Positions 3,939 through 30,086 of a stretch of DNA of 64,000 nt are shown in pieces. The first letter of the stretch is position 1. Each line of letters begins with the position of its first letter. The position numbers were made by a program, and so were the translations under genes. Source of the stretch: Geobacteraceae bacterium. GTDB lineage: Bacteria > Desulfobacterota > Desulfuromonadia > Geobacterales > Pseudopelobacteraceae. Location of the stretch: positions 1-64,000 of the forward strand of contig JAJTBI010000001.1 of the NCBI GenBank assembly GCA_021286935.1. The letters are read 5' to 3'. The notes beneath the pieces are model-generated. The model worked only from the letters and a program-made list of their open reading frames with translations. It ran no database searches and was not told the origin of the DNA.

Positions 3939-3956
3939 GTGACAGGTGTCTGTCAC
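3939..3956. promoter_or_regulatory. Perfect 7-4-7 palindrome in a divergent promoter region
   Basis: GTGACAG-GTGT-CTGTCAC is a perfect inverted repeat in the 253-bp gap between the leftward regulator operon (start 3847) and the rightward operon at 4101. Its size and place fit an operator. The HTH regulator at 2363-3847 is an obvious candidate ligand, but this is unproved. The rest of the gap is AT-rich and shows no other gene. Confidence 0.5.
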
Positions 3957-4100: not shown

Positions 4101-6551
4101 ATGCCGGAATTGTCACGCCCGTGGTTTACGACAATCAGCAGAGAACACAAGCATCAACAGACCGGTATAGCTCAGGCCCTTTCATTGGCCGGTGTCTGTC
4201 TGGACCGCCCGGAAACCATCACAGCCACGCTCCCTTTTTCTGTGGGGGATGTGACAGCCGGATCTGAAAGTGAACTGCAGGCGGTGGTGGCCGGAGACAA
4301 GCGACATGTTGACCTGCCGTTGATTATTGAGCAGTCAAACTACTTTGCCAATATGCTGAAGCGAGCCGCATCTGGCGAGACCTCCCAACGGGTGGTGGCT
4401 GATCTGGAACGATTTTTGGCAGATAACAGCAGCAATGTCTGGGAAAATAGCTGGGTTCGTTTTCCCCTTAAACGGCTTTCAGCCTATGCCCGCCAGGTGC
4501 TCGACCAGGATCTGCTGGCCGACAAACAGAACCCGGCCGCAGGGCAGCGGGCTGATTCGGCACGTTTCTTCTTTCATGCTGCAGATGGTACGGTCATGCT
4601 GCGTCTGCCGATCAGTTATCTGATCAAGCTGGCCCTGGCCGACCTGATCGGATCTCAGCAGATTCTGCCCGATCTGATCAGGCAGACCGGCATCCGTTTG
4701 CTGGGGCATTACCTGAATGACAATACCTCGCCGGAGACGTTTTCCTTCAATGTGGTCTCCCTGGCCCCGCAGAACGGCATGGGTGCGGCCATTGCCCGGG
4801 AAACCGCCATCCGCTTTCTGATGACCCAACTGTTGCTCCAGTATGCCAATCAGGCCTTTGGTCTTACCGAACATGGCCAGCAGGCCATGGCCTATTTTGC
4901 CCCCCATCCGCCGGTGCGTCAGAAGGAGCTGAACGACCATATCCCGGACAGTTTCTATCGTGAGCTGTTCATGAGCCCCTGTCTGTCCGGATGGGACAAG
5001 GGTGAGGACAAGTTCCGCTACATGCAGCTCTGCCATCAGGTCCTGTCCCGCAGTCAGCTGAATGCCGTGGCCAAGCTGAAGGATGCCGGGATCATCCTTA
5101 ACAACCTGGTGGTGCTGCCCAATGTATCCAATGTCAGCCTGGCCAACAACGGCACCCATATCAGCATCGGCAGCCGCAGGCTGACTGCGGCCCTGCAGGA
5201 CAGTGGATCAGGCTTCAAGGCGGTCCACGAAAAGCTGCTGGGTGATCTGACCATCAAGATCTGCGAGCATTTTCTGCCGCTGTTTGTCGGTTCCTACACC
5301 GCTGCCCCGTTCCGTCTGGCCTTCAGTGATTTCCACCCTGAAAAGGCGCTGGGATTCCTGCCCCACGAACTGGACTACACCCACCTGCGGATGTTGTGGC
5401 GGCGCTGGCGCAAGAAGGCAGATATCTCTATCTTTGGACAATCGGTCACACCGTTTGGTCCTCCGGCCCTGGATTCGTTCATCAGTCGGGCTTTTGGTCT
5501 GAAAGGGGATTTTGTGCCGGATTATCGTCTGGTGGATTATCTGGTCTGCCTGCTTTCAACCGATCGCAGTCCAGCCCTGAATGGCCAGCCGGGCAACACC
5601 GATCTGCTGCGGCGTGATCTGGCTGATATGGGGGTCTTTGATGAGCAGATGTCGGTCTACCTGCTCTACAAACAGCGTGAATTTGCCAAAATGGGATTTT
5701 CCGGCTTTGAAGGCCGTCACTACAGCCTGTTCCAGTCCTTTAGTGGTGATATGGGTCGGGCAGCAGACCTGCAGACCCTGATCACGGCTCTGGCCTACAA
5801 GTATATGGCACAAGGGGTTGATCACCGTAGCATACCGGATGATCCGTCTCTGGAGAGTGAGCGGCGTCAGATCTTCTTTGGGGCAGCCATCGGCCTGCCC
5901 ACCTTCTTTGTTCGCAAGGATACTGCCAACAGTTTTCTGCACCGGATCATCAGCAAAACCCAGGGGGTGCGTCCCAGCAAGCGCTATCCAGGCTATCTGC
6001 GGGTCCAGATCCATGAATACCGGCTGGCGCTGCTGCAAACTCTGCGAGAGGATGCTGCCGATCTGATCGAGCAGATGGGGCTGCAGGATACCATTGCAGA
6101 TCTTGCATGTCGGCTGAGAGAACCGGAGCAGTACGCTGCCAGCGGCCGACTGACGGGCGGCATTCTTAAACAGCTGGGCGGCAGATCCGCCCTGAACACT
6201 GAGGCCCGTGATTTTAACAGCGGTGCAGAAGAGTACTATCGTACTACCCTGCGTCGACAGCAAACCGCCGAGGCCTTTGACCTGCTGCAGGGGGAATGCT
6301 GTCTGCTTGATCAGCAGGCTGCAGAGTTGGATGAACCGCTGCGTAAGGCGTTGTTGCTGACCCTGCAGGGGCAGAGTGCTGATCAGTGTATGACGCAGAT
6401 CAGACAGGATATCCTGCAGGAACAGGCTGATATCCCGACCCTGCAACGGTTGATGAATCTGCTGCTGGTAAAAGTGCATCATGATCAGCAACAGTCAATG
6501 ACCAGAAGGAGCGAACAGGATGCTGCAGCACCAGTATATCGAGCGGGATAG
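4101..6551 (+). CDS. Conserved-looking protein of unknown family, 816 aa
   Basis: I do not recognise this family. The protein is soluble: no signal peptide, no clear membrane span and no P-loop, Cys cluster or HTH. It looks like a mixed alpha/beta enzyme or scaffold with a basic stretch near residue 430 (LRMLWRRWRKKADISIFG) and a Gln-rich helical C-terminus. It is the first gene of the rightward cluster; psd starts inside its last 32 bases, so the two proteins are probably needed together. A link to phospholipid or envelope metabolism is inferred from this coupling only. Base use matches the neighbours and the frame is open throughout, so it is a real gene. The start follows a weak ribosome-binding site (GATGAGGCCCCC). 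Confidence 0.75.
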   Translation: MPELSRPWFTTISREHKHQQTGIAQALSLAGVCLDRPETITATLPFSVGDVTAGSESELQAVVAGDKRHVDLPLIIEQSNYFANMLKRAASGETSQRVVADLERFLADNSSNVWENSWVRFPLKRLSAYARQVLDQDLLADKQNPAAGQRADSARFFFHAADGTVMLRLPISYLIKLALADLIGSQQILPDLIRQTGIRLLGHYLNDNTSPETFSFNVVSLAPQNGMGAAIARETAIRFLMTQLLLQYANQAFGLTEHGQQAMAYFAPHPPVRQKELNDHIPDSFYRELFMSPCLSGWDKGEDKFRYMQLCHQVLSRSQLNAVAKLKDAGIILNNLVVLPNVSNVSLANNGTHISIGSRRLTAALQDSGSGFKAVHEKLLGDLTIKICEHFLPLFVGSYTAAPFRLAFSDFHPEKALGFLPHELDYTHLRMLWRRWRKKADISIFGQSVTPFGPPALDSFISRAFGLKGDFVPDYRLVDYLVCLLSTDRSPALNGQPGNTDLLRRDLADMGVFDEQMSVYLLYKQREFAKMGFSGFEGRHYSLFQSFSGDMGRAADLQTLITALAYKYMAQGVDHRSIPDDPSLESERRQIFFGAAIGLPTFFVRKDTANSFLHRIISKTQGVRPSKRYPGYLRVQIHEYRLALLQTLREDAADLIEQMGLQDTIADLACRLREPEQYAASGRLTGGILKQLGGRSALNTEARDFNSGAEEYYRTTLRRQQTAEAFDLLQGECCLLDQQAAELDEPLRKALLLTLQGQSADQCMTQIRQDILQEQADIPTLQRLMNLLLVKVHHDQQQSMTRRSEQDAAAPVYRAG

Positions 6552-7509
6552 CGGTGCAGTGATGACCGAACAACTGCTGGGTGACCGGATGGTGCAGCTA
6601 CTCTACCATCAGGTCCGTGAAAACAGCAGTGGGCTGTTCCGTTTGCTGACCAGCAGCTGGTCATCCCGTATTCTCGGGGCGGTCAATTTTGATCGTCCGC
6701 TCTTGAATCGTCAGAGCTTTGCTGCCCGCTGCGGCATTGATCTGAGTGAATGCCTTGATCCGCCGGAACAGCTGGACACTGCCCGCAAGGTCTTTGAACG
6801 CAGGATCAGGTACGAACAGTGCCGCCCACTGCCCGATGATCCTGCTGCAGTGGTCTCTCCGGCTGATGCACGGGTGATTGTCGGATCGCTGCAGGAAACG
6901 GACCTGTTCTTTCTGAAAGATAAGTTTTTCAGCTTTGAAGAGCTGATCGGGCCTGAGCGCAGCTTTTGGCGCCATCGCTTTGTAAACGGTGATTTTGCCG
7001 TTTTTCGCCTGACCCCGGACAAGTACCACTACAACCATGCCCCGGTCAGCGGGCGGGTGGTTGACTTCTACAGCATTGACGGTGCCTACCACTGCTGCAA
7101 TCCCACTGCCGTGGTCAGCATGGTCACTCCCTATTCCAAGAACAAGCGGGTGGTAACCCTGATCGACACCGATGTTGAAGGTGGCAGTCAGGTCGGTTTG
7201 GTGGCGATGGTGGAGGTGGTGGCATTAATGATCGGTGATATCGTGCAGGCCTACAGCCACCAGGGCTACGATGAGCCCCGTCAGGTCACGGTCGGCATGT
7301 TTCTGGAAAAGGGACAGCCCAAGAGTCTCTACCGCCCCGGCAGCAGCACCGATATCCTGCTTTTCCAGCCCAACAGGGTCCGTTTTGCCGCAGACCTGCT
7401 GCAGAATCAGGGCCGCTGTGGTGTGGCCAGCCGTTTCAGCCAGGGCTTTACCAAACCGCTGGTGGAGACCGATATCAGGGTGCGCTCACTTTTAGCAACA
7501 AAGTGCTAA
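6520..7509 (+). CDS. psd: Phosphatidylserine decarboxylase
   Basis: Converts phosphatidylserine to phosphatidylethanolamine at the inner membrane, using a pyruvoyl group made by self-cleavage. All expected catalytic elements are visible in the 329-aa proenzyme: Asp116 in SPADARV, His173 in NHAPVSG, and the cleavage site Gly274-Ser275 in RPGSSTDILLF, giving a small alpha chain of about 55 residues. The length fits the longer type of family member rather than the short archaeal-like form. The ATG at 6520 has a good AGGAG site and overlaps the preceding gene by 32 bases; the next gene starts with a GTG inside its stop region. This overlap on both sides argues for a tightly coupled operon. Confidence 0.93.
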   Translation: MLQHQYIERDSGAVMTEQLLGDRMVQLLYHQVRENSSGLFRLLTSSWSSRILGAVNFDRPLLNRQSFAARCGIDLSECLDPPEQLDTARKVFERRIRYEQCRPLPDDPAAVVSPADARVIVGSLQETDLFFLKDKFFSFEELIGPERSFWRHRFVNGDFAVFRLTPDKYHYNHAPVSGRVVDFYSIDGAYHCCNPTAVVSMVTPYSKNKRVVTLIDTDVEGGSQVGLVAMVEVVALMIGDIVQAYSHQGYDEPRQVTVGMFLEKGQPKSLYRPGSSTDILLFQPNRVRFAADLLQNQGRCGVASRFSQGFTKPLVETDIRVRSLLATKC

Positions 7510-9701
7510 AAATACTGCTGAGAACGCTACGCAGTACTTACCACTCTGTCAGCCTGTCTGGTATATCCCGGTCGCTGTGTTCCGTTGTCCTGCATCTCTT
7601 GTTGCCATGCCTGCTGCTGTTTTTCAGTACAGCAGCAGGCGCTGCCTCCCGGCTGACCATCTCGATCCACGCATCGTCCCAACTGTTGGCCTCAGCACCT
7701 GCAAAAAACGCTGTGGATGATACGCTGCAACTGCTGCAGCGCGTATTTCCTCAGTCAGAAGTGACCCTAAATCGTGATGGCGCGGTGATCCTGCAGTTAC
7801 CTGACCGGATACCACCGGCGGCAGCGGGGAGCGTGCCGGATCAGTCCTATCACTGGCGTTCCAGCCGCAAGGGAACGCGGACTGTCCTGCTCCTGCACGC
7901 CACCAGCCCGGAAGGGGTCAGCGCCGGTCTCTACGGCCTGCTGCAGGAACAGCTTAAGATCAGGTTTGTACATCCGCGTCAGACTATTTTCCCGCGCTAC
8001 CGTACCTGGCCGCTGCCAGCGGTGTTCAGTTTTTCCGGGCAGCCACGTTTCCGGCATCAGGGCTTTCATCTGCATACCCTACACCCGATGGAGTTGACGG
8101 AACAACTGCATGATCCGCTGTATCCGGGCGGCTTTGAGGATGTTATCGCCTATCTTGACTGGCTGGCCCGCAATGGCCAGAACAGCTTTCAGTTCTTTCT
8201 GCTGCGGGAGGTAGACCGTACTGCCTGGCCTGCCCATGCCCGCCGGATCGTTGCCTATGCCCATGGCCGTGGCATCCATTGCGGGGTTGAGATTTCGCTG
8301 GCTATGCTGCAGCAACAGGCCTTTCAGGCAATAACCCTGTTGAAGCCGCTCCCCACCCATCGCCGTCAGGTTGAGCAGACCCTGGACTGGTTGTTCCAGG
8401 CACCTTGGGACTTTATCACGCTTGAATCGATGATGGGTGAGCACCTGCCTTTGATCAGCAGGCTGTTGCCCAGCGCCCAGCGACATCTTGAGCAGTTGGT
8501 GGAGCGGCAGTACGGACGCCCCCTGCTCTACGCCACCCACGTCATCAGAGGCAGGAAAGAGGAAAAGGTGCGGCGTCCCCTGCATCCGGCAAGCGGTATC
8601 CTGATCCATACGGTGATGTGCTACTCGGCATCGGAAGACAAGGCGCCGGTCTATGGTAATCGCAACCAGTGTTTCATGCTTGAGGCAGCCAAGGCGGAGG
8701 TGGCCGTGCGCCAGACCTGGTACTGGCCGGAATCCTCCTACTGGGTCGGCTTTGACAGTTCTGTGCCGCTGCTGCTGTTGCCGTATCTGGACAGCCGCTG
8801 GGATGATATCCGGGTGATGGAAAAGCTGGGCCTGCATGGACATCTGACGTTCAGTACCGGCTGGGAATGGGGCTACTGGCTGGTGGACTGGAGTATTGCC
8901 CGCTGGTCCTGGCAGTACCGCGACAACGGCCGGTTGCGGGGCACATCTCCGCTCTCCCGTCTGGCCGAACTGCTGCCGGATCGGGATCTGAACAGACAGT
9001 GGCAACGGGCGTTGCAGCTGCAGAACCGTTTTCTCAAACAGCAGGAACTGCTGCGGTATCTGGCGGCAGCCACCCCCTTTTCAGAGCTGCCCGCCCCCTT
9101 TGACCTGCCGTTTCAGCCTGCGCCGGAGTTTTCATACCGCTGGCTGCTGCACGATGCCGACGATACGGCATCTGTGGCGCTGCTCAACGGACCGGTGGCA
9201 GGTCTGAGGCGCTATGCCGAAGAGATGGAGGTGGTCACGAACAGCTTGACTGCCCGGATCAGCCTCCTGCGCCGGAACAACAGCATTTCCGAAGGACCGC
9301 TTGCGCTGGCGCAGGAACTTCGTGATGCCTTGCAGATGACCGCCTTGCGGGCACGTCACCGCAGCTTGACCCTGCAGGCTCTGACGGTAAAGCATCGAGA
9401 CGCGCTGGGGGGACAGCAGGAGTCAGACCGGCTGCTGTTGCAGGCCGGACTGGTGCGCCAGAATGCACTGCAGCAGGTGCGGCAGCGCGAGCTGCAGTAC
9501 CGCTATCCAGTGGAGCTGCTGGCCCGGCAACGGTCCAGCCTGACGGCCTATCCTTTTGGTTACCTGTACCCGGTAGCCGGGCTTTTCTTCTGGCAACGGG
9601 AAGAGGAACAGGTTCGCCATGAACGTTTTGATCCCCTGTTTATGAAGCTGTGGGATATTCGCCGGACCCTGGGGCTGGGAAGTGCGTTTACCCATACCTA
9701 A
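7503..9701 (+). CDS. Secreted glycoside-hydrolase-like protein
   Basis: A 732-aa exported protein starting with GTG inside the end of psd. A basic N-terminus and a hydrophobic run (about residues 27-46, LHLLLPCLLLFFSTAAGA) form a signal peptide. The next 110 residues end in SPEGVSAGLYGLLQEQLKIRFVHP-type sequence, the pattern of the N-terminal domain shared by GH67 alpha-glucuronidases, GH20 hexosaminidases and DUF4838 proteins. A barrel-like region follows (YLDWLARNGQNSFQFFLL; HGRGIHCGVEISL). Catalytic residues cannot be assigned with certainty. It probably acts on a glycan or glycolipid in the periplasm; the substrate is unknown. Its place between psd and a PHP-glycosyltransferase suggests an envelope role. 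Confidence 0.65.
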   Translation: MLKILLRTLRSTYHSVSLSGISRSLCSVVLHLLLPCLLLFFSTAAGAASRLTISIHASSQLLASAPAKNAVDDTLQLLQRVFPQSEVTLNRDGAVILQLPDRIPPAAAGSVPDQSYHWRSSRKGTRTVLLLHATSPEGVSAGLYGLLQEQLKIRFVHPRQTIFPRYRTWPLPAVFSFSGQPRFRHQGFHLHTLHPMELTEQLHDPLYPGGFEDVIAYLDWLARNGQNSFQFFLLREVDRTAWPAHARRIVAYAHGRGIHCGVEISLAMLQQQAFQAITLLKPLPTHRRQVEQTLDWLFQAPWDFITLESMMGEHLPLISRLLPSAQRHLEQLVERQYGRPLLYATHVIRGRKEEKVRRPLHPASGILIHTVMCYSASEDKAPVYGNRNQCFMLEAAKAEVAVRQTWYWPESSYWVGFDSSVPLLLLPYLDSRWDDIRVMEKLGLHGHLTFSTGWEWGYWLVDWSIARWSWQYRDNGRLRGTSPLSRLAELLPDRDLNRQWQRALQLQNRFLKQQELLRYLAAATPFSELPAPFDLPFQPAPEFSYRWLLHDADDTASVALLNGPVAGLRRYAEEMEVVTNSLTARISLLRRNNSISEGPLALAQELRDALQMTALRARHRSLTLQALTVKHRDALGGQQESDRLLLQAGLVRQNALQQVRQRELQYRYPVELLARQRSSLTAYPFGYLYPVAGLFFWQREEEQVRHERFDPLFMKLWDIRRTLGLGSAFTHT

Positions 9702-9731
9702 TCAGGATGCCATGCGATTATTGCACCACCT

Positions 9732-9748
9732 TAACCTGAACGTAACAG
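9732..9748 (-). promoter_or_regulatory. Pho-box-like direct repeat upstream of PHP-glycosyltransferase
   Basis: Read on the minus strand: TGTTAC-N5-GGTTAA, two half-sites 11 bp apart. The first half equals one of those at pstS. It lies 83-99 bp before the 9831 start. The palindrome TAACAG-TAGG-CTGTTA (9743-9758) overlaps it and could be an alternative operator. The remaining 128-bp gap shows no gene. Confidence 0.4.
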
Positions 9749-9830
9749 TAGGCTGTTAGGATGCGAATCAGCAGCACTGTGCTCTGTTCAGTCAAACCAT
9801 AGCCGTCGTAATCAGTGAGAGGCAACCGCC

Positions 9831-12284
9831 ATGAAGACCTATAAAGCAGACCTGCACGTCCATTCCAGCTATTCAAACAAGCCTACCTACTGGGCCATGC
9901 GTAAATTCAACTGCCCGGAGAGCTATACCTCGCCCCGGCAGCTCTATCAGACCGCCATGGCGCGGGGGATGGACTATGTCACCATTACGGACCACAACGC
10001 CATCGGCGGGGCGCTGGAGATCGCCCATCTGCCCAACACCTTTATCAGTGCTGAGATCACCACCCACTTTCCTGAAAATGATTGCAAGGCTCATGTGGTG
10101 GTGCTGCATATCTCCGAGGCTCAATTTGGCGAGATCATGCGTTTGCGCAAAAATGTCTATGAGCTGGTTGCCTATCTCAATCAGGAGCGGATCGCCCACT
10201 TTCTGGCTCATCCGCTTTATGCCCAGAACGACAAACTGACCATCGAGATCATTGAAAAAAGCCTGCTGCTCTTCACCACCTTTGAGATCCGGAATGGCTG
10301 TCGAGCCAGCCGGTTCAACAACTTTACCGCGACATTGGTGGGAAGCCTGACCCAGGCGTTGATCGAGCGGTTGGCCGATAAACACAATCTGACCCCGTTG
10401 GGTGACGAACCGCACCGTAAGGGGGTGGTGGGAGGCTCTGACGACCACGGAGGCCTGTTCATTGCCCGGGCCCATACCTGCAGTCACCACGGCGAGGATC
10501 TTGATGCCTTCCTTGATGCGGTCCGGGAAGGCAAAACCTGGGCAGAAGGGGAACATGGCGGGCCGCTGACCATGGCCCACAGCCTCTATGGTGTGGCCCA
10601 CAGCTTCTACCGAGAGCGCTTTGGTGAGCGCAGGCGGAGCGCCACCCCCTTTGTCAGCGCCCTGTTGGACCGTTTTTTCAATCTGGGCACGGACAAAGGT
10701 TCCTTTGTGGAAAAAATCAGGCTGTTCGTCCTGAAAAACCTGCCGGAAAAACGTTCAGCCCGGGAACTTAATTTTGAAGAGCTGCTGGACAGTGAGGCCC
10801 GGCAGTTGCTCAACGATGCCGACTTTCTGGAAGGTATCAAGGGGGCTGACCTGAACCGGAAGATCTTCATGGTTACCAGCCGGTTGGCAAACCGGATCCT
10901 GTATCAGTACACCAACCGCTTCATGTCGCTCTCCATGCAGGCCGGTTTTTTTGATTATCTCAACACCGCAGGCACCATCGGTCTGGTGCATCTGCTGATT
11001 TCTCCCTACTACCTGGCCTTTCACCATCAGCATAAAGGCAAGGAACTGATTCGCGAGATAGCGGAACGGCTGCCGGAGATCCCGTTTTCGCCTGCAGAGG
11101 AGAAGATCGCCCTGTTTACCGATACCCTGGATGAGATTAACGGCGTGGCCATGACGATCCGGCGTCTGATCAAGACTGCACAGGAACGGGGCATCAGCCT
11201 GACCGTGATTACCTCCGGCGATGACAGTCAGGCCGCACCTGCAGGGGTGAAACAGTTCCAGGCGGTGGGCGACTTTGTGCTGCCGGAATACCCTGAACTG
11301 AAGCTCAGCTTCCCGCCGATTCTGGATGTGCTGAATTACATCGAGAAAGAGGGAATTACCCGTATCCATGTCAGCACTCCCGGTACGGTTGGCCTGTTGG
11401 GGCTGTTGATTGCACGGCTGATGAATATTCCGGTTGCCGGCACCTATCATACTGAAATTCCTCAGTACGTGCGCAGCCTTACCGATGACGAATTCCTGGA
11501 ACAGGTTGCCTGGAACTATATGATCTGGTTCTACAACCAGATGGAAGAAGTCATGGTGCCTTCAGCCAGCACGCGGGAACAGCTGTTCTCCCACGGTCTG
11601 CCGCTGGAGAAGATGAAGCCGCTGCCGCGCTGGGTCGATACGGAACAGTTTTCGCCTGACAAACGGATTGAGCGTTTCTGGCTTGAGCGTGGCCTCAGCG
11701 GCAGGACCACCCTGCTCTATGTGGGGCGGGTCTCACGGGAAAAGGCTCTGGATCTGCTGGTTGAGAGCTTTTGCAGGCTGATTGATGAAGGGGCGGAGCT
11801 GTGTCTGGCAGTGGTTGGCGACGGTCCCTATCGCACAGAGATGGAGCAGTCCCTTGCCGGATATCCTGCTCTGTTCACCGGCTATTTGCAGGGCGAAGAG
11901 CTGCAGCAGGCCTATGCCTCGGCAGATCTGTTCGTCTTCCCCAGCGCCACCGACACCTTCGGCAACGTGGTACTGGAGGCCCAGGCTTCGGGGCTGCCGG
12001 TGATCGTCTCCGATGCCGGAGGTCCCCGTGAGTTGATGGTTGGTGGCGAGACCGGCATGGTGTTCAGTGCTGGCAACCAGGATGAACTGACCGGCGCAAT
12101 CCGCAGTATGACTACCAATCGCCTGATTCTTTCTCTGATGGGAGAGAATGCCCGGAGTTTTGTGCTGGCAAAGGCACCACACGCATCAGACACCTACAGC
12201 ACCATCCTGCAGCCCGGTCCCAGGACGGAGGCCGGTTATTCCACGTTTGGGGAGAATCCATGTCTGCAGCCCTGTTCCTGCTGA
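9831..12284 (+). CDS. PHP-domain phosphoesterase fused to GT4 glycosyltransferase
   Basis: An 817-aa fusion. Residues 1-250 form a PHP domain: DLHVHSS (metal ligands His9, His11), TDHN (54-56), Glu75, His88 and SDDHGG near 205-210, so a metal-dependent phosphoesterase is likely. A helical linker with TSRLANRILYQYTNRF follows. From about residue 425 (IALFTDTLDEINGVAMTI) to the end is a GT-B glycosyltransferase of family 4, with YVGRVSREKALDLLVESF and the donor-binding FPSATDTFGNVVLEAQASGLPVI. This half resembles enzymes that glycosylate diacylglycerol or phosphatidylinositol-type lipids. A bifunctional glycolipid enzyme is inferred. It overlaps the next gene by 25 bases, and a Pho-box-like repeat lies upstream. 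Confidence 0.85.
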   Translation: MKTYKADLHVHSSYSNKPTYWAMRKFNCPESYTSPRQLYQTAMARGMDYVTITDHNAIGGALEIAHLPNTFISAEITTHFPENDCKAHVVVLHISEAQFGEIMRLRKNVYELVAYLNQERIAHFLAHPLYAQNDKLTIEIIEKSLLLFTTFEIRNGCRASRFNNFTATLVGSLTQALIERLADKHNLTPLGDEPHRKGVVGGSDDHGGLFIARAHTCSHHGEDLDAFLDAVREGKTWAEGEHGGPLTMAHSLYGVAHSFYRERFGERRRSATPFVSALLDRFFNLGTDKGSFVEKIRLFVLKNLPEKRSARELNFEELLDSEARQLLNDADFLEGIKGADLNRKIFMVTSRLANRILYQYTNRFMSLSMQAGFFDYLNTAGTIGLVHLLISPYYLAFHHQHKGKELIREIAERLPEIPFSPAEEKIALFTDTLDEINGVAMTIRRLIKTAQERGISLTVITSGDDSQAAPAGVKQFQAVGDFVLPEYPELKLSFPPILDVLNYIEKEGITRIHVSTPGTVGLLGLLIARLMNIPVAGTYHTEIPQYVRSLTDDEFLEQVAWNYMIWFYNQMEEVMVPSASTREQLFSHGLPLEKMKPLPRWVDTEQFSPDKRIERFWLERGLSGRTTLLYVGRVSREKALDLLVESFCRLIDEGAELCLAVVGDGPYRTEMEQSLAGYPALFTGYLQGEELQQAYASADLFVFPSATDTFGNVVLEAQASGLPVIVSDAGGPRELMVGGETGMVFSAGNQDELTGAIRSMTTNRLILSLMGENARSFVLAKAPHASDTYSTILQPGPRTEAGYSTFGENPCLQPCSC

Positions 12285-13312
12285 TCGCAACATTCCTGCT
12301 TGCCGTCTATCTCTGGTGGGGTTTTCGTTTTTTACCGGCTGAACGCTGGCAGATCTTTGCAACTGTGCCGGAGCGTAAAAATGAGCTGGGAGGCTGGCAG
12401 GGGATCAACTTCACCTGGTACGGTCTTCTGACCGCCAACGCCTATCTGGTGGCTGTGGCGGTGCTGCTGGTGCTGCTGGGATCGGTGGGTGTGCCTCCCC
12501 TCACAACCGCCATCCTGGCAGTTGCCATGCTTTGCTGCTGTGTACCGGCCTCACGGCTGGTGGCGCGGATTGTAGAGAAAAAAGCTCACACCTTTACCGT
12601 TGGCGGAGCGGTTTTTGTGGGGATCATCATTACCCCGTTGCTGATCAGCCTGCTGAACCGACTGGTTGGTCCGCAGCTGGGCTTCCAGATTCCGGTCATG
12701 GCGGCCTATGCCGCCATTGCGATCGCCTATGCCTTTGGTGAGGGACTGGGGCGGCTGGCCTGCATCAGCTTTGGCTGCTGCTATGGTAGGCCGGTAGAGC
12801 CAGGGACTGGCTTGCTGTCACGCCTCTTTCGTGGTCGTGGTTTCATTTTTTTTGGCAGTACCAAGAAGGTTGTCTATGCGGGGGAGATGGAGGGGGTTGA
12901 GGTTATTCCGGTCCAGGCACTAACCGCTGTGCTCTATACCGCTTGCGGTCTGCTGGCTATGCTGCTGTTTCTCGCCTCCCACCATGCTGCGGCCTTCCTG
13001 CTGGCCACCACGGTTACCCAGGGCTGGCGCTCTTTTTCAGAGACGATGCGGGCTGACTATCGCGGCGCAGGCAGGATCTCCGCCTATCAGGTCATGGGGG
13101 TGATCGGTGTGCTGTATGCCTTTGCCATGGTCTGGCTGCTAGGGGGGGATGCAAGCGCACCAGCCCAGCTTACGACAGGCTTGAAAACACTCTGGAGTCC
13201 GGCCCTGATCCTGTTCCTGCAGGGGATCTGGTGCGTGATCTTCTATTACACTGGCCGCAGCACCGTTACCGGAGCCACCCTCAGTTTTCATATTCACCAT
13301 GACCGGATCTGA
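12260..13312 (+). CDS. Lgt-like (prolipoprotein diacylglyceryl transferase family) membrane protein
   Basis: A 350-aa protein with about seven hydrophobic segments (first at 2-20). The conserved block EGLGRLACISFGCCYGRPVEPG near residue 165-185 corresponds to the Lgt signature region around its essential Arg and Asn/Gly residues, but with the GCCYGR variant of divergent family members. Classic Lgt moves diacylglycerol from phosphatidylglycerol to lipobox cysteines; this variant is longer and may use another acceptor. It starts with ATG after GGGGAGAATCC inside the previous gene and overlaps the next gene by 14 bases. Its place in a run of lipid-related genes supports a role in lipid transfer. 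Whether the housekeeping Lgt lies elsewhere cannot be seen. Confidence 0.7.
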   Translation: MSAALFLLIATFLLAVYLWWGFRFLPAERWQIFATVPERKNELGGWQGINFTWYGLLTANAYLVAVAVLLVLLGSVGVPPLTTAILAVAMLCCCVPASRLVARIVEKKAHTFTVGGAVFVGIIITPLLISLLNRLVGPQLGFQIPVMAAYAAIAIAYAFGEGLGRLACISFGCCYGRPVEPGTGLLSRLFRGRGFIFFGSTKKVVYAGEMEGVEVIPVQALTAVLYTACGLLAMLLFLASHHAAAFLLATTVTQGWRSFSETMRADYRGAGRISAYQVMGVIGVLYAFAMVWLLGGDASAPAQLTTGLKTLWSPALILFLQGIWCVIFYYTGRSTVTGATLSFHIHHDRI

Positions 13313-13805
13313 TACGGAGCACAGGGTTCTGGTTCAACGGATATTCAAACAAATTACCCAACGCCTGAAGCTGATAGCTGGCAGTGGCCTTTCACCGCGG
13401 AGTATGGTGCTGACCGTTTGTATCGGTGGTGCCATGGGGCTGTTGCCGCTGATCTGGGGTACATCACTGCTCTGTCTGTGGCTGGGCCAGCGCTTCAGGC
13501 TCAATCATCTGGTGCTGCAGTCAATCAACTACCTGCTCTATCCGGTGCAGCTGGCGCTGCTGGTGCCGTTCTGTAAGCTTGGTATGCTGCTTATTCTCTG
13601 GGGGCCGAGCGTTGCACCTGATCAACTGCTAACCGTCCATCACGCAGGCGTTTTCAGTGCCTTATCATTGCTGCTCTGGTCGTCATTTAAGGCGTTGCTG
13701 GCCTGGTTGATCACGGTCCCGCCTGTGGCACTGCTGGTGTATCTGTTGCTGACAAGGATGGTCAAAAGGTTGGAATCAGGGTCTGCAGTTGTTGCCGGAT
13801 TGTGA
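13299..13805 (+). CDS. DUF2062-type membrane protein
   Basis: A 168-aa protein with two or three membrane spans (about 43-65, 75-105, 118-150). The stretch SGLSPRSMVLTVCIGGAMGLLPLIWG matches the DUF2062 pattern (Pro, then small residues, then P-x-x-G) found in proteins often placed next to glycosyltransferases and acyltransferases of envelope synthesis. The start ATG lies inside the Lgt-like gene and has only a weak ribosome site, so translational coupling is likely. Function unknown. Confidence 0.7.
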   Translation: MTGSDTEHRVLVQRIFKQITQRLKLIAGSGLSPRSMVLTVCIGGAMGLLPLIWGTSLLCLWLGQRFRLNHLVLQSINYLLYPVQLALLVPFCKLGMLLILWGPSVAPDQLLTVHHAGVFSALSLLLWSSFKALLAWLITVPPVALLVYLLLTRMVKRLESGSAVVAGL

Positions 13806-13862: not shown

Positions 13863-14813
13863 ATGACACACCCCCCCAATCAGCTTTCCCCTGAAGAGGC
13901 GCAGGAACTGTTGAAGCAGTTGGTGCTGCTGGACGGGCCAGGTTCGACCAACCTGTCGCGGCTGCAGGTGATGCAACTGCTCTGTGCCCGTAAACGTGCC
14001 TTTGCCGCAGGAGACTCCACCTTTGATGCGCTGCTGTTTGAACTGGGTAAACAGCTGGATGAACAGATCCGGGACGGTGCCCCGGCAGTGGTTAAAAAAC
14101 GTTTCAACCTGCTGACAGATTACTTTCACCGGCTTGAACTGGCCACCGGTCACCTGAACCATCTGGCCTTTATGGGCAGTGCCCAGCTTACGTTTGAACT
14201 GCTGGTGGAGTTGAAGCATGACATGGAGTGGTTTGAAACAATTGAGGTCGGTCTGTTCAGCCGCCTGATGGTGGAAGACCTGCTCAAGAGTCCGCTGTTG
14301 GACAGCTATGGGCGCCGCAGAGTCAAGCTGCTGGTGGATGGCCTGGCCAAGATTCAGACCGTCAAAACTCAGAAAAATGATATGAAGTTTTTTGATCTGC
14401 AGGCAGTGCAGGGGATCATCACCCGGCTCCAACTGCTTGAAAAGGAAGAACGGTTGTTCATGGTACTGACTGAGATTGTTGCTGAACAGTCCAGGCTGAA
14501 TCAGGCCGCCATGAGCACGCCGCAAGGGCGGGAGGTGATCCGGCGGGTTACTACCATTGAACTGCGTCAGCGCCACGCTGTTGAGGGTGATATACCGGAT
14601 GAGCTGTTTCAGAAGGCCTTTGAACTGGTGAAGCTGGAAGCGATCTATTCCAACGCCATCCTGCCGCAGGTGGTGCGAGGCAATGGTATTCTGCGGCAGG
14701 ATTTTATCAAAAAATCAGGCTTGGATCTGTTTTATATAGAAGATCTTGAGGATCAGTATTGCAGTCGCAATGGGCTTTCGCCTGATCTGCTGGCGGCAAT
14801 TCGAACTGTCTGA
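13863..14813 (+). CDS. Hypothetical helical protein, 316 aa
   Basis: No recognised domain. The protein is predicted to be soluble and nearly all helical, with many Leu, Gln and charged residues (SPEEAQELLKQLVLLDG; FELLVELKHDMEWFETIEVGL) and no signal peptide. It starts at an ATG after GAGGTTGCCATC, 57 bases after the DUF2062 gene; the gap contains a small TTGAGC/GCTCAA inverted repeat. It ends 6 bases before the convergent FRG gene. It could be the last gene of the envelope cluster or a separate unit. No function is proposed. Confidence 0.7.
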   Translation: MTHPPNQLSPEEAQELLKQLVLLDGPGSTNLSRLQVMQLLCARKRAFAAGDSTFDALLFELGKQLDEQIRDGAPAVVKKRFNLLTDYFHRLELATGHLNHLAFMGSAQLTFELLVELKHDMEWFETIEVGLFSRLMVEDLLKSPLLDSYGRRRVKLLVDGLAKIQTVKTQKNDMKFFDLQAVQGIITRLQLLEKEERLFMVLTEIVAEQSRLNQAAMSTPQGREVIRRVTTIELRQRHAVEGDIPDELFQKAFELVKLEAIYSNAILPQVVRGNGILRQDFIKKSGLDLFYIEDLEDQYCSRNGLSPDLLAAIRTV

Positions 14814-14819
14814 GCGTAG

Positions 14820-15605
14820 TTACCGCGGACTGTAGTGGCGCTTAAGCCAGCGGCTGAGGCCGTCCAGGCCGGGAAACAACACCCTTTCTGTAACGTTGGC
14901 CTGGTCAAGCTTGTCGCGGATTTCCCACTTCAAAGCAGCCGGAATGATGATCTTGCGACCGGTGTCTGGATGTTGCTCCAGCCAGTCATCCAGTGCCATA
15001 CCGGGTGTGGTCATGACTGAGCAGAAGGCAAACTGGTTGACGATCCGGTCATCAATGGAGGGTGGTTCAAAAAATACGGCAACATCATCCTGGGTAATGG
15101 CATCCAGCTCAGGCAACGATTTAATCACTTCAGATAACATCTCTACCGTCAGTACGTTAGCCCCTTCCTGCTCAAGTTTATGACGTAATACGTCAGGCAA
15201 AAGCTGGTGCGCCTTGACGTAGTTGACGGCCCAGACCACCCCGTCAAGATCACTCTTTTCAATATTGGCCGTGGCAAAGTGCATGGCGATGAAGGGCGAA
15301 TAGGTCCAGTCCAGCAGGCGGGTGGGCAGGCCATAGTGCTGCGCCACTGATAACCAGTGCCAGATGGAGTCACGCTCTACCACCCGTTGGTGGGCGTATT
15401 TTTTGAAATTACGCATCAGGTGGTGTTCCAGCTCTGCGTATTGGCCGCCCAGCCGCATCAGGGTGGTTTCAAGGCGGTAGTCAACATCGGACAGCCCCCG
15501 AAAGGCAAAGCGGGAACGGTACCGGCCCAGCTCTTCGTTCCATGAATCGCTAAACAGGGCTTGCTGAAGTTCATCCCAGGAGTGGACGGTAATAGTTTCT
15601 ATCAT
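14820..15605 (-). CDS. FRG-domain protein
   Basis: A 261-aa soluble protein. Residues about 27-130 carry the FRG pattern: RFAFRGLSDVDYRLETTL and, later, AQHYGLPTRLLDWTYSPFIAMHFA. FRG domains occur in proteins of unknown biochemistry, some in phage-defence loci. The ATG at 15605 lies only 5 bases after the stop of mgsA, so both are in one transcript. The C-terminal 100 residues are not recognised. Pairing with a metabolic gene such as mgsA is unusual. Function unknown. Confidence 0.8.
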   Translation of the reverse strand: MIETITVHSWDELQQALFSDSWNEELGRYRSRFAFRGLSDVDYRLETTLMRLGGQYAELEHHLMRNFKKYAHQRVVERDSIWHWLSVAQHYGLPTRLLDWTYSPFIAMHFATANIEKSDLDGVVWAVNYVKAHQLLPDVLRHKLEQEGANVLTVEMLSEVIKSLPELDAITQDDVAVFFEPPSIDDRIVNQFAFCSVMTTPGMALDDWLEQHPDTGRKIIIPAALKWEIRDKLDQANVTERVLFPGLDGLSRWLKRHYSPR

Positions 15606-15610: not shown

Positions 15611-16078
15611 TCAGGCCACATTCTTTAAACGTTGTTTGTACTCTTCATAGTCCTGCATCATCCGGTCGTAGGGATCATGCATCAGGGATGACGAGATCAT
15701 AAAGTCAGCCGTTGCGCGGTTACAGGCCACCGGAATATTCCAGACCACCGCTATCCTCAAGAGCGCTTTAACATCCGGGTCATGGGGCTGCGGCTCCAGC
15801 GGATCCCAGAAAAAGATCACAAAGTCAATCTCCCCCTGGGCGATCATGGCACCGATCTGCTGATCACCACCCAACGGTCCGCTCTGCAGCCGGGTGACCG
15901 GGAGGTCCAGTTTTTCGCAGAGTAGCGCACCGGTGGTGCCGGTGGCGTACAGCTCATGCTCCACCAGAATGGCCCGGTTAAAGCGGGCCCACTCCAGCAG
16001 GTCACGTTTTTTGTGGTCATGGGCCACCAGGGCGATCCGTTTGCGTGATCCCATTTCGATGATGTTGTAAGAAGGCAT
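15611..16078 (-). CDS. mgsA: Methylglyoxal synthase
   Basis: Makes methylglyoxal and phosphate from dihydroxyacetone phosphate, a bypass of lower glycolysis that releases phosphate. The 155-aa chain aligns along its length with E. coli MgsA: VAHDHKK (His20, Asp21), LYATGTTG, SGPLGGDQQIGAMI (catalytic Asp72), FFWDPLEPQPHDPDVKALLR (Asp92, His99) and VWNIPVACN. An in-frame extension upstream exists, but the ATG at 16078 follows GAGGAAAACAAC and matches the family start, so I use it. Downstream gene: FRG protein. Being phosphate-releasing, it fits the phosphate theme nearby, but that is speculation. Confidence 0.95.
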   Translation of the reverse strand: MPSYNIIEMGSRKRIALVAHDHKKRDLLEWARFNRAILVEHELYATGTTGALLCEKLDLPVTRLQSGPLGGDQQIGAMIAQGEIDFVIFFWDPLEPQPHDPDVKALLRIAVVWNIPVACNRATADFMISSSLMHDPYDRMMQDYEEYKQRLKNVA

Positions 16079-16181
16079 GTTGTTTTCCTCTTTACCAGAT
16101 GTTGTTTCCTGCAAAGAGTACACTGTTTGGCTCAGAGATTCCAGTGGATGCGACGATTTGGCAGGAAGATCGTTAAACCAG

Positions 16182-19100
16182 CTACTGATCTGCTGACAGT
16201 GCTCCAAGCATCACGCGGGGGGCCTCGTTAGTGTCCTTGATTACCACCGATGATCCCTTGACTTTTTTGGCGGTTTTTTTGACCTCGCTGGCCATGGAGG
16301 CCAGTTGCGCGTAGGAACCGATCTGCAGGTTGGCGGTGCTGATTGTCGCTACAGAAAGAGAAAGCAGGTTAAAGGTCTCCAGTTCTCCTTTGCGATTAAA
16401 AGAGGTGTAGCAACCTTTGGCATAGTCACTTGCGCCATGCAGCAGGGGCAGTCGGGCATCAAATTCCGCAATCATCTGCCGTGACAGGGCCACGGCATGG
16501 CCGGGACCGGTGATGATGATGAAGTCATCGCCGCCGATATGACCGCAGAAGTTTCTGGACTGTCGATCCTGCAGCAGGTCATCGGCGTACTGTTTCAGGA
16601 TATCACCCACCACCTGAATCACCATGTCGCCTCGCTCAAAACCGTAAAAGTCGTTGTACGGCTTGAAGTGGTCAATATCGATATAGGCGATGTCAAACGG
16701 CATGCCTGATTCCAGCCGTCGGGTGGTTTCCCGCTGGATACTCTCGTTACCCGGCAGACCGGTCAGCGGGTTGGCTCCCTTGGCCAGCTTCAGGTTCAGG
16801 GCGGTGATCGCCTCCACCAGGGTGCGGACATCCAGAATGCCTCGATAGACGCCACGTTTGGCAACGCAGATGTTCTCCAGCCGCATGGTGCTAAAGTTGC
16901 CGTGCAGCGCCTGGGCCGCTTCTTCAATGCTGGCGTCGGACTCAATCACCAGCGGCACCGGTTGCATCAGGTCACGCACCTTTTTGGAGTGGTTGATATG
17001 AAAGGCGTAGCCGATCCGCCCCACAATCTGTTCTTCAATGAACTCGGAGCGGTTCAGCACCCCGGCGACCCGGTGCTGGTCCACCACCGGCAGTACCTGC
17101 AACCGTTTATCGGTCTGAAACCGTTCCAGGGCAGTATTCAGGCGGTCTGCCGGTCTCAGTGGCTCGATATGCAGGGTGATATCCGCAACGGTCTGCAGTG
17201 AACGATCAACTTCTTCCGGTGCGGCAGCCAGGGGAGGGCTGGGATGCAGCTCCTGGGTTGTCTGATCTGCACTCACGTCGGTTGGATCACCAACAAGCAG
17301 TGGTGTGCCTTCCCGTAAAAAATCTTCAAAGGTTTCCCGTGGCATCGGTTTGCCAAAGTAGTAGCCCTGCATGGTGTCGCAGCCCAGCTCCTGTAACAGT
17401 TGGTGCTGGTGGGCGGTTTCCACCCCTTCTGCAGTAACCTTGAGGTGCAGTGAGCGGGCCATGGCGATGATGGCAACCACAATCGCCCGGTCATCGGGAT
17501 TGCTGTCCAGTTCCTTCACAAAGGAACGGTCAATCTTAAGGCGGTCCACCGGCAGATGTTTCAGATAGGTCAGGGACGAGTAACCGGTACCAAAGTCATC
17601 AATGGCCAGTTTAACCCCCAGCTCTTTCAGCCTGAAGATCTGCTCGGTATTTTCATTGGAATGTTCCATCAACAGCGATTCAGTCAGTTCGCAACAGAGT
17701 GCATCAGGTGGCAGCCCCACCATCTGCAGTTGACGGGTGACCCGCTCGGCAAACTGGCGGTCCTTCAGCTGGCGGGTCGAGACATTAACCGCCACAGTCA
17801 GATGGGGATAGCCCTGCTCTCGCCACTCTTTGCAGTTTTGTAGGGCCAGCTCCAGCATCCGGTCCCCCAGCTGCACAATGGCACCGTTATCCTCGGCCAC
17901 CGGGATAAACTTGTCCGGCCCCACCAGCCCCAGGGTGGGGTGCTGCCAGCGGGCCAACGCCTCCATGCCGACCAGTTTTTTACCATCCTGGCTGAACAGT
18001 GGCTGATAACAGGCAAAAAACTCCCCGGCCCGAATCCCCCGCAGGATGCTTGACTCTATCTGCATCTGCTCACTGACCGCCTGGTTCATCTCCTCTGAAT
18101 AAAACTTGAAGCCGCATTCCCCGCCAATCGACTTGGCCTGTGCCTGGGCCAGTGCCAGATGGGCATGCTGCAACAACACCTCACCGGTGCGGCCATCATT
18201 GGGAAAGATGGCGATACCGATATGGACGTTCAGTTGGAACTCTGCGTCATGCAGGTTGATCGGTTCATTGAGGGCATCAAGCAGTTTGGTGATGACCGGT
18301 AAAATATCCCGTTCACTCTCGGTCTTTGGCAGCAGGATGCCAAATTCACCCTTTTGCAGCACTGCCAGACTGTCGGTTTCGCGCAAAACACTCTGCAGAC
18401 GGTCTGCCACACAGCGCAGCAGCTCATCGCAATCATCATTGGCCCGGGCACTGATGGCGCCAGGACAACGCCCCAGGGCTAGTTTCAGCACGGACAGTGC
18501 CTGTTCTTCACGGTTGCTGATGGCCAGCAGCTGACTAAGCCGGTCATTGAGCAGTTTCTGGTTGGGCAGCCCGGTGATGGCGTCATAGCGGGTCAACTCT
18601 TCCACCTTGCGGGCCGCCTGTTTCAGCAGGGTGATATCTTCCAGAAAGATGATGGTGCAGGAATCTCCTTCAAACAGAATCCGGTGGGCAGAAACCGCAC
18701 CATTCAGCAGTGTCCCATCCTGTTTCCGCAGGGTGACCTCAAGCCCCTGCACAACACCGTTGTCACGGATCTGCCGGATCAGGTCCAGCCGTTCTGCGCT
18801 GTTTTCCCAAAGGTTAAGGTCGCTGTCGCTACGGCCAACAATGCTGGCAACCGTATAGCCGGTCATGCCGGCAAAGCGTTGGTTAACCAGCAGGATCTGG
18901 CGGTCATGATCCCGCACCACTGCAATGCCGTTGGGAGAGGCATGAAAGGCCCTGATGATTAGCTCATGGGATGAGGCGTTGTTTTTGGCAAAGCGGCGGA
19001 TCAGCAGATAGAGCGATATGGCGGTGATGATAAGCAGGCCGATACCGGTAGCAATATGCGGCAGGGTTGACAGGCTGAACTGCTGTTCAAGCAGCCCGGC

Positions 19101-23450: not shown

Positions 23451-25010
23451 TTGAAGTTTCCTGTTTCCCTGTTGTCACTGCCGCTGCGTGCCGCTGCTGA
23501 TATCCGCGCCCGGCAGTTCTTGCGTAAAGACCCACTGGAAAGCCAGCGTGAACTGCTGCCTCGCCTGCTGCGCAAGGCCGCTGCCACCCACTTTGGTGTT
23601 ACCTATGGTTTTGCCGGTTTGGCCGGTCTGCCGTTTGATACCTGTTATCGCCGTTTTCAACAACAGGTGCCGATCCGCACCTATCGCCAGTTCTGGGATG
23701 ACTGGTTTGCATCCAGCCTGACAACCACATCGCAAGGGCAGCAGTTGTGCTTGCAGGATCAAACTTGGCCCGGTCTGGTCCCCTGGCTGTGTGAAACCTC
23801 CGGCACCACTGCGCCAACCAAGTTCATTCCCTTTACCCATGAGATGTTCAAAATGAACCAGCGGGCAGCCCTGGATATGCTTTGCTGCTATCTGACTGCC
23901 AAGCCGGGCAGCAGCATTCCAACGGGTAAGATCCTCTATATGGCTGGCAGTACCCAGCTCAAGCAGATGGGGGAAGGGGTGCTGGCCGGTGACATGAGCG
24001 CCATTACCCTGCAGCAGCGCCCCTCCTGGCTGAATCCGTTTGTGGAACCGCAGGAACCGCTGACCTCAGCCCCCTGGGATCAGCGACTGGAGGGGATGGC
24101 CCGTTTGCTGTTGGAAGACCAGAAGATCCATATTATTTCCGGGGTACCGCCCTGGATCCTGCTGCTGCTGAAGCAGGTAGAGGCCCTATCAGGCCGCTCT
24201 GTGCCTGAGGCATTGCCCAATCTGGAGCTGATTATCCACGGTGGTACCAGCAAGGCCCCCTATGCTGCCGAATATCAGCGCCTGCTTCCTGCAGGCGGTC
24301 CTGATTTTCTGGAGCTGCTTCCCTCGTCTGAAGCGTTTATGGGCTTTCAGGTGCAGGGTGAAGCAACCATGCGGTTGACCCCGTTTTATGGTGCTTTTTT
24401 TGAGTTTGTGCCGATTGAGCAGCTGGATGAGACCGGTGCGCCGTTGTCGGATGCCCGAGCCGTACCCTTGGCCGAGGTGGTGACCGGGCAGCGCTATGCG
24501 GTGATCCTTTCCACCTGTGCCGGGCTCTGGCGCTACCACATCGGTGACACCCTGCGTTTTCTGGATACCGACCGCTTCCATTTTGAGTTCACCGGTCGGG
24601 ATAAATTTCTGGATCGTTTTGAAGAAAAGGTGACCCAGAGTGAAGTAGAGCAGGCGGTTGCCCTGTTGAATAGCCAGCATGATGGTGTTGTGCGGGAGTT
24701 CATGGTGGGGGCTGATATTGCCGGGCGTTGCCACCACTGGGTGCTGGCCTGTCGAGGTTGTGGGCTAGCGTCGGATCAGGCCGCTAGCCTGCTGGATGCG
24801 CAGCTTAGAAGCTCCAATGCCGATTACGACACCTTTCGCCAGCAAGGCAGAATCAACCGCCCCCACGTGCTGTTGGTATCGGAACAACAGATTTACGACT
24901 GGTCTGCCCAGGTACGTGGCAAACTTGGTGGACAGAGCAAGATCCCTCATATAGACCCGACCCTGACCGGAGAGCTGGTCAAAAGTCTCTCCACCTATAC
25001 CTGCAGTTAA
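23451..25010 (+). CDS. GH3 auxin-responsive-like family acyl-adenylating protein
   Basis: A 519-aa protein of the GH3 family, best known in plants as amino-acid conjugases of jasmonate and auxin and also found in bacteria with unknown substrates. Visible are the ATP-binding motif LCETSGTTAPTKFIPFT (about 113-129), the LELIIHGGTSKAPY region, PSSEAFMGFQ, and LWRYHIGDTLRF with FTGRDKFLDRFEEKV, the adenylate-forming motif set. The start is TTG at 23451 after AGGAGCACCA. It probably forms an acyl-adenylate and passes it to an amine or thiol. Pairing with an alpha/beta hydrolase is the only context clue. Confidence 0.88.
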   Translation: MKFPVSLLSLPLRAAADIRARQFLRKDPLESQRELLPRLLRKAAATHFGVTYGFAGLAGLPFDTCYRRFQQQVPIRTYRQFWDDWFASSLTTTSQGQQLCLQDQTWPGLVPWLCETSGTTAPTKFIPFTHEMFKMNQRAALDMLCCYLTAKPGSSIPTGKILYMAGSTQLKQMGEGVLAGDMSAITLQQRPSWLNPFVEPQEPLTSAPWDQRLEGMARLLLEDQKIHIISGVPPWILLLLKQVEALSGRSVPEALPNLELIIHGGTSKAPYAAEYQRLLPAGGPDFLELLPSSEAFMGFQVQGEATMRLTPFYGAFFEFVPIEQLDETGAPLSDARAVPLAEVVTGQRYAVILSTCAGLWRYHIGDTLRFLDTDRFHFEFTGRDKFLDRFEEKVTQSEVEQAVALLNSQHDGVVREFMVGADIAGRCHHWVLACRGCGLASDQAASLLDAQLRSSNADYDTFRQQGRINRPHVLLVSEQQIYDWSAQVRGKLGGQSKIPHIDPTLTGELVKSLSTYTCS

Positions 25011-25248: not shown

Positions 25249-26214
25249 ATGTTGAAAAAGAGCGTTCTGGCGCTGTGCGCCACCTTCTGTATCGCCACTG
25301 CGGCCCATGCAGAAAAAGTACATGTTGATGCCAAGCTGCCAACCTACAAGGCAACGTCCGGTGTATCCGGCAACCTGAGCAGCATCGGTTCCGATACCCT
25401 GAACAACCTGATGACCTACTGGGCAGAAGGGTTCAAGAAGAAGTACCCCAACGTGAACATTCAGATCGAAGGCAAAGGCTCTTCAACCGCTCCCCCTGCG
25501 CTGATCGCCGGCACTGCCCAGCTGGGTCCCATGTCTCGCGAGATGAAGGGCAAGGAGATTGAGGATTTTGAGAAGAAGTATGGCTACAAGCCGACCAAGA
25601 TCGGGGTGGCCCTGGATTCACTGGCAGTGTTTGTACATAAGGACAATCCGGTTAAGTCTCTCTCCCTTGATGAGGTTGATGCCATCTTCTCCAAGACCCG
25701 CAAGCGTGGTCTGGCTGAAATCACCACCTGGGGTCAGGCTGGTGTAAGCGGTTCACTGGCAGCCAAGCCGATCTCGATGTTTGGCCGTAACTCCGCCTCC
25801 GGTACCTATGGTTACTTTAAAGAGCACACCTTGAAGAATGGTGACTATAAAAATACTGTAAAAGAGCAGCCCGGTTCCGCTTCGGTTGTTGAGGGTGTTG
25901 CCAAGGATATTAGCGCCATCGGCTATTCCGGTATCGGCTACGCCACTTCAGGGGTTAAGGCAGTGCCGCTGTCTGACAAAAAAGGTGGTACCGTGTATGA
26001 GGCTAACAACGCCAACGTACTGTCCGGCAAATACCCGCTTTCTCGTATGCTGTATGTTTATGTAGCGAAGAAGCCGGGCCAGCCTGTGCCTAAGGTTGTG
26101 GAAGAATTTCTGAAATTTGCCCTTTCCAAGGAAGGTCAGCAGATTGTGGTTAAGGATGGTTTTGATCCGCTGCCTGCTGGGGTTGCTGCCAACCAGTTGA
26201 AGGCGCTGAAGTAG
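25249..26214 (+). CDS. pstS: Phosphate ABC transporter, periplasmic binding protein
   Basis: Binds phosphate in the periplasm and delivers it to PstCA. The 321-aa precursor begins with a clear signal peptide (cleavage after about residue 21, AAHA-EK). Phosphate-binding motifs are present: SGNLSSIGSDTLNNLM, GKGSSTAPPALIAGTAQLGPMSRE, and GRNSASGTYGYFKEH. It is longer at neither end than typical PstS. AAGGAGGATGTACCAATG gives a strong start. First gene of the pst operon, behind a Pho box; a palindromic element separates it from pstC, which may help raise pstS above the permease genes. Confidence 0.96.
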   Translation: MLKKSVLALCATFCIATAAHAEKVHVDAKLPTYKATSGVSGNLSSIGSDTLNNLMTYWAEGFKKKYPNVNIQIEGKGSSTAPPALIAGTAQLGPMSREMKGKEIEDFEKKYGYKPTKIGVALDSLAVFVHKDNPVKSLSLDEVDAIFSKTRKRGLAEITTWGQAGVSGSLAAKPISMFGRNSASGTYGYFKEHTLKNGDYKNTVKEQPGSASVVEGVAKDISAIGYSGIGYATSGVKAVPLSDKKGGTVYEANNANVLSGKYPLSRMLYVYVAKKPGQPVPKVVEEFLKFALSKEGQQIVVKDGFDPLPAGVAANQLKALK

Positions 26215-26228
26215 AAATATCAATAATG

Positions 26229-26329: not shown

Positions 26330-26370
26330 TATCAATTTTGACTTTTTCTTTCTGTTTTTCAGGATTTTCC

Positions 26371-28293: not shown

Positions 28294-28302
28294 GAAGCGT
28301 GA

Positions 28303-28456: not shown

Positions 28457-28472
28457 AAAAGGAATCTGATTC

Positions 28473-30065: not shown

Positions 30066-30086
30066 TTGCCCAAAGGATACTGACTG

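Follow-up and report, generated by a model that had tools for sequence, protein, structure and literature searches.

A conserved three-gene operon of Desulfobacterota points to a possible new bacterial route to an amide-bearing membrane lipid, perhaps serving in phosphate shortage

The first 64,000 bases of contig JAJTBI010000001.1 (positions 1–64,000; hereafter the window), from a Trichlorobacter-like genome (Geobacterales), carry an array of six genes led by one for an 816-amino-acid protein, here called U816. Across Desulfobacterota, the conserved unit within this array was found to be three genes, encoding U816, a phosphatidylserine decarboxylase (Psd)-type pyruvoyl decarboxylase and an Lgt-like membrane protein, in that order. 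This trio, of which we found no description in the open-access literature, suggests that bacteria have a so far undescribed route to a membrane lipid with an amide, which may serve in phosphate shortage. We judge the chances to be about even that the three proteins work together in making or altering the head group of a membrane lipid, by transfer of diacylglyceryl, by decarboxylation and by amide ligation at the expense of ATP. U816 represents a strongly conserved family that has no Pfam or NCBIfam model; its predicted structure now assigns it to a catalytic superfamily, and its gene linkage ties it to two lipid enzymes. The trio offers concrete candidate genes for unassigned polar lipids of anoxic settings.

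Conservation of the trio

All homologue searches covered Desulfobacterota, and the trio loci were fetched from genome collections. In the window, the genes for U816 (4101–6551, forward strand) and the Psd-type enzyme (6520–7509, forward strand) overlap by 32 bases, and a good ribosome-binding site (AAGGAG) precedes the psd start at 6520 by 8 bases. Homologues of these two genes shared a strand in all 80 loci and overlapped in 71 of them, far more than chance would give, and the Lgt-like gene (12260–13312, forward strand, in the window) shared the strand of U816 in all 75 loci where it was found. Psd and Lgt-like genes are adjacent in most genomes, and genes for a secreted protein and/or a PHP-GT4 fusion intervene only in Trichlorobacter-like genomes. 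Homologues of U816 were detected in 32 of the 76 genomes of the source family. Of 395 genomes sampled across the phylum, 46 (39 genera) had one, two of these being very weak partial matches. Among the 76 family genomes, the Lgt-like gene was present in those bearing U816 plus one incomplete metagenome-assembled genome (MAG; Fisher test, 1e-20), and the close Psd showed the same distribution.

The trio is a conserved operon whose members are gained or lost together, and the gene linkage supports well a joint action of the three proteins in one pathway. A first-pass annotation of this DNA had treated all six genes of the array as a cluster for an unusual glycolipid or lipid-linked product; joint conservation was borne out for U816, psd and the Lgt-like gene, and failed for the six genes as one system. 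The lipid head-group chemistry that it had anticipated is indicated by the conserved set of three. Plasmid-borne copies were sought, and none was found. In three loci (L101, L102 and L103), a DksA-like zinc-finger gene lies in or near a 420-base gap between the Psd and Lgt-like genes.

Predicted fold and motifs of U816

U816 had been called unrecognised before, and it indeed matched no family among Pfam, NCBIfam, PHROGs, PADLOC and PDB sequence profiles. Its sequence is 63–95% identical among Geobacterales homologues and about 44–60% phylum-wide, with 95% identity to the counterpart in Trichlorobacter thiogenes, the nearest named relative. An AlphaFold2 model built from an alignment of 61 U816 homologues from the whole phylum (A2) reached a pLDDT of 90.8 and a pTM of 0.91. 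An earlier model, built on 25 close homologues, had low quality (pLDDT 65.6); Foldseek returned nothing meaningful for it, and VIA put Dop and GshA, of the same superfamily as the matches below, first at Z 11. For the good model, VIA-align gave E. coli GshA as the best match (1v4g; Z 17.1, rmsd 4.2, 416 aligned positions, residues 36–794), followed by YbdK (1r8g; Z 16.0, 332 aligned, residues 49–719), PafA (Z 13.9) and Dop (Z 13.7), with plant and yeast glutamate-cysteine ligases (Z 12.1 and 10.0) and glutamine synthetase III (Z 6.0) lower down. Ranks 1 to 18 all belonged to the carboxylate-amine ligase superfamily (Z 17.1 to 6.0; 17 entries at Z 10 or above), and the first unrelated chain scored 4.5. 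Foldseek alone was suggestive at most, with GshA chains as its best matches (E 0.03–0.14) and PafA at 0.57. On the strength of this model, U816 is a new family with a predicted carboxylate-amine ligase (GS/GCS/PafA) fold. With this fold, found by the structure prediction that the first-pass annotation had recommended, a lipid bearing an amide becomes a likelier product than a glycolipid.

The superfamily signature is GhExE (Ex[EH]) on the first core strand (PMC2588565), and U816 fits it with G54-S-E56-x-E58 on strand 51–58, where the Gly and both Glu residues are invariant in the 61 sequences and the window's protein has Ser at h. Five further residues are invariant (E212, H353, R526, E537 and R539), and equivalents of the later motifs may be proposed for them by their order along the sequence. 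E212, on strand 212–214, was placed in this way. H353-x-S355, on strand 352–358, would correspond to the strand-4 motif [HDQ]x[NH], with Ser in the second position; it is followed by FLPLFVGTYSAAP, and in GCS2 the GLHVHIG segment is followed by YLPHFLALSSNSP. The best hhalign segment, itself non-significant, pairs the H353 region with that same GLHVHIG. R526, a candidate for the Arg of core strand 5, and E537-x-R539-x2-S542 parallel R225 and E234-x-R236-x2-D239 of GCS2, by order only, and the strand-6 motif Ex[RK]x2D would thus carry Ser542 in place of Asp. U816 shares with GshA and YbdK the predicted fold, the GxExE first strand and a similar order of the putative later motifs, but differs from them in its low identity (12–13%, no significant sequence match), about 300 extra residues, the Ser substitutions in the putative strand-4 (for N/H) and strand-6 (for D) motifs and its gene context. 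It also shares its predicted fold with PafA and Dop, and PafA is a carboxylate-amine ligase for a large substrate; unlike these, U816 has lipid-enzyme partners rather than proteasome genes.

Selenocysteine was considered for some homologues with in-frame TGA or TAG and was dropped; the two stops that were located fall in the variable C-terminus. In two loci (L061 and L054), U816 and/or Psd homologues occur in several pieces, with apparent frameshifts that may reflect sequencing error or decay. A perfect palindrome, GTGACAG-GTGT-CTGTCAC, lies at about 3939–3956 in the window, roughly 145–160 bases upstream of U816, and may be a regulator site.

The Psd-type and Lgt-like partners

Judged by its sequence, the Psd-type protein belongs to the phosphatidylserine decarboxylase family and keeps the catalytic Asp, His and Ser. 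It matched PF02666 at 2e-40 (139 bits against a cut-off of 22) and E. coli Psd (PDB 6l06) at 5e-19, with the Asp and His motifs aligned, and conservation covers the SPAD Asp, YHxxH and GSST motifs. It scores under the NCBIfam equivalog cut-offs, its cleavage motif is GSST and not the LGST of Psd, and its gene is the second Psd gene of the source genome.

The Lgt-like protein (PF01790, 1.1e-10) was compared in an alignment (A5) with E. coli Lgt and the source genome's own canonical Lgt. It keeps equivalents of Y26, R143, G154, R239, E243 and R246 of E. coli Lgt, and the equivalents of the central-cavity network (Y54, R165, R257, E261 and R264 in its own numbering) are invariant in A5. In contrast to Lgt, all 25 Lgt-like homologues have a non-His residue at the position of His103 (HGGL), and N146 and E151 are replaced by Cys168 and Cys173 in every one of them; GRLACxSFGCCYG stands where the canonical signature has GRLGNFINGELWG. 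Cys174 is conserved as well. E. coli Lgt mutants at H103, R143, Y26 and E151 are inactive; HGGL is the proposed binding site of the lipobox peptide, and E151 is proposed to bind the first phosphatidylglycerol (PG) (PMC4728403). Because the equivalents of H103, N146 and E151 are lost, the Lgt-like protein is probably not a lipoprotein Lgt, and it coexists with canonical Lgt, which is encoded by a separate gene elsewhere in the source genome and in 48 of 50 trio genomes. Retention of the Y26/R143/R239 set and loss of the other three residues, read with the roles proposed for HGGL and E151, argue that the donor-side chemistry is, plausibly, partly retained and the acceptor altered.

Linkage to phosphate genes

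Linkage to pst genes was measured by PstC (TIGR02138) matches over 50 trio genomes, and all counts are among the matches listed. A pstC gene lay within 20 kb of the trio in at least 13 of the 50 genomes, where random placement expects 0.9; related trio genomes are not independent, though these cases cover 11 families. For canonical Lgt genes, taken as a control, the corresponding count was 2 of 61. With the distance narrowed to 10 kb, it was at least nine of 50 for the trio versus none of 61 for canonical Lgt. More generally, pst genes recur in the trio flanks, the window has its own pstSCAB-phoU operon (25249–31540, forward strand) 12 kb downstream, and 18 Geobacterales loci have a gene for a Zn-dependent phospholipase C close to the trio. 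A link of the trio to phosphate is supported by this pst proximity, and a response to phosphate itself is what we infer from it. The first-pass annotation had raised the idea of lipid replacement in low phosphate; the pst proximity gives that idea independent support, and a Pho box upstream of U816 did not materialise.

Several other genes were seen in this context. A GH3-family adenylate-forming amide synthetase is encoded immediately before pstS (23451–25010, forward strand), with homologues near the trio in four loci (L048, L050, L052 and L053). The window's PstC and PstA (26326–30065, forward strand) are unusually long, at 655 and 530 amino acids, with weak beta-propeller (WD40-like) matches in PstC and a coiled-coil-like insert in PstA. 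In one locus (L129, 3925–6641, reverse strand), phnC-phnD-phnE-like phosphonate/phosphate transporter genes follow the trio directly on its downstream side and share its strand.

Proposed pathway

Lgt-type enzymes transfer diacylglyceryl from PG, pyruvoyl decarboxylases require a free alpha-amino acid, and carboxylate-amine ligases form amides using ATP. Given these general chemistries of the three families, the simplest joint product would be a glycerolipid whose head group is a decarboxylated amino acid, together with an amide. In such a pathway, the Lgt-like protein would take diacylglyceryl from PG, with release of glycerol phosphate, and pass it to a small non-lipobox acceptor, perhaps a cysteine-like thiol, which would give a phosphatidylserine-like lipid without the phosphate. 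The Psd-type enzyme would then decarboxylate this free amino acid, leaving an amine as head group, and U816 would activate a carboxylate with ATP and link it to an amine as an amide. The ligation might take place on the decarboxylated lipid or, at an earlier stage, on the acceptor. Membrane-lipid remodelling under phosphate shortage would be the likely use. Step order, substrates, product and phosphate response are our extrapolation from enzyme families and gene neighbourhoods. It is a tentative idea, which we lean against, that the trio makes a new phosphorus-free class of membrane lipid, used across Desulfobacterota in phosphate shortage: a PG-derived diacylglycerol bound through a (thio)ether to the head group, a decarboxylated amino acid bearing an ATP-dependent amide, with the glycerol phosphate recovered.

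In the sulfate reducer Desulfovibrio alaskensis, phosphorus-free glyco- and aminolipids made via Agt and OlsF replace phospholipids in low phosphate (PMC5193443). The trio resembles that system in belonging to the same wider bacterial group and in its pst-linked physiology, but the enzymes are different, and U816, the Psd-type and the Lgt-like proteins are not named in the portions of that report drawn on here (PMC5193443).

Several observations weigh against a lipid pathway of this kind that answers to phosphate. The equivalences of catalytic residues in U816 beyond GxExE come from sequence order and not from superposition, and S355 and S542 depart from the superfamily motifs; hhalign of U816 against GshA/GCS2 was not significant (E 0.13–0.42). 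The genes run ligase–decarboxylase–transferase, which is not the sequence of steps put forward here. In 37 of the 50 trio genomes, many of them with short contigs, no pst gene lay within 20 kb among the matches listed. Finally, the Pho-box signal upstream of U816 was not above controls: 4 of 82 regions scored at least 12, as was also seen with 11 of 60 permuted motifs, and an early score that had looked raised was lost against these permuted-motif controls.

Alternative readings

The predicted ligase fold and the conserved cysteines could also fit a soluble thiol or dipeptide route, in which U816 is a divergent glutamate-cysteine ligase and the Psd-type and Lgt-like proteins use the peptide for redox or stress purposes and not for bulk lipid. 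The best structural match of U816 is a gamma-glutamylcysteine synthetase (Z 17.1), the Lgt family places diacylglyceryl on thiols, and Cys168, Cys173 and Cys174 are conserved in the Lgt-like protein. We nevertheless regard this route as unlikely: no significant sequence match to GCS1 or GCS2 was obtained by hhalign, nor a Pfam match to them for 25 U816 family members even at E 10, the free alpha-amine that a pyruvoyl decarboxylase needs is present in gamma-Glu-Cys only on the Glu, and the pst neighbourhood is left unexplained. Slightly less probable still is a PafA-like role, in which U816 joins the carboxylate of a peptide or small protein to phosphatidylethanolamine (PE) from the adjacent Psd, for membrane anchoring as in Atg8-PE. 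Such a role would draw on the presence of PafA and Dop among the closest folds and on an extra Psd paralogue, encoded beside the ligase, that supplies the amine acceptor; however, GshA and YbdK, which join amino acids, outscore PafA, the Lgt-like protein is left without a role, and a conserved small (Pup-like) open reading frame was sought upstream of, between and downstream of the trio genes and was not found.

That the six window genes make up a single system for glycolipid synthesis and export, as the first-pass annotation had it, is in our view improbable to a high degree. The overlaps of 25 and 14 bases at the PHP-GT4/Lgt-like/DUF2062 junctions speak for it, as does the PHP-GT4 gene, which was present in 27 of 33 trio-bearing versus 16 of 43 other family genomes (p 1.5e-4, uncorrected for relatedness) and whose GT part is closest to a phosphatidylglycerol glycosyltransferase model (GlcN-PG synthase, NF053787; 119.5 bits against a cut-off of 480). 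The same counts show that PHP-GT4 is associated with the trio but separable from it; the glycolipid part of that reading found no support. An adjacent PHP-GT4 or secreted-protein gene is missing from most trio loci, and no export component was identified. The least probable of these alternatives, in our estimation, is a second lipoprotein-maturation route, in which the Lgt-like protein lipidates a special class of proteins, the PE made by Psd is the acyl donor and U816 acts on the lipidated protein. Membership of PF01790 and the retained R143 and R239 equivalents are compatible with it, but E. coli Lgt cannot do without H103, of the HGGL acceptor site, or E151 (PMC4728403), and every homologue has other residues at these two positions. 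The trio genomes with a canonical Lgt (48 of 50, as above) count against it too.

Neighbouring genes

The remaining genes of the array, for a secreted 732-amino-acid protein (7503–9701), a PHP-GT4 fusion consisting of a PHP domain and a GT4 glycosyltransferase (9831–12284) and a DUF2062 protein (13299–13805), all on the forward strand, are looser, lineage-local neighbours of the trio. Open reading frame coordinates reproduced exactly the gene order and the four overlaps reported before, the first three in order being 32 bases at U816/psd, 7 at psd/secreted and 25 at PHP-GT4/Lgt-like, and the last 14 at Lgt-like/DUF2062. The fifth junction, between the secreted-protein and PHP-GT4 genes (9701 to 9831), is a 129-base gap, and the array therefore consists of two overlapping blocks. 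Earlier labels for the psd, PHP-GT4, Lgt-like and DUF2062 products hold, the last with a match (9e-5) below the cut-off. The GH67/DUF4838 label of the secreted protein had to be given up: neither it nor six homologues had a Pfam DUF4838 or GH67 match even at E 10, and it matched no PDB sequence. Homologues of the secreted protein were found near the trio in eight loci, and a DUF2062 gene follows the Lgt-like gene or the trio in most Geobacterales loci and in one other locus.

Directly after the DUF2062 gene, a TIGR04442 family protein is encoded (13863–14813, forward strand); it scores over the cut-off, with only the C-terminal half of the model matched. Next to it on the reverse strand is a gene for an FRG-domain protein (14820–15605) with a strong match (2e-45) to the candidate defence family PDC-S15, and this gene is adjoined by an MGS-like (methylglyoxal synthase) gene (15611–16207).

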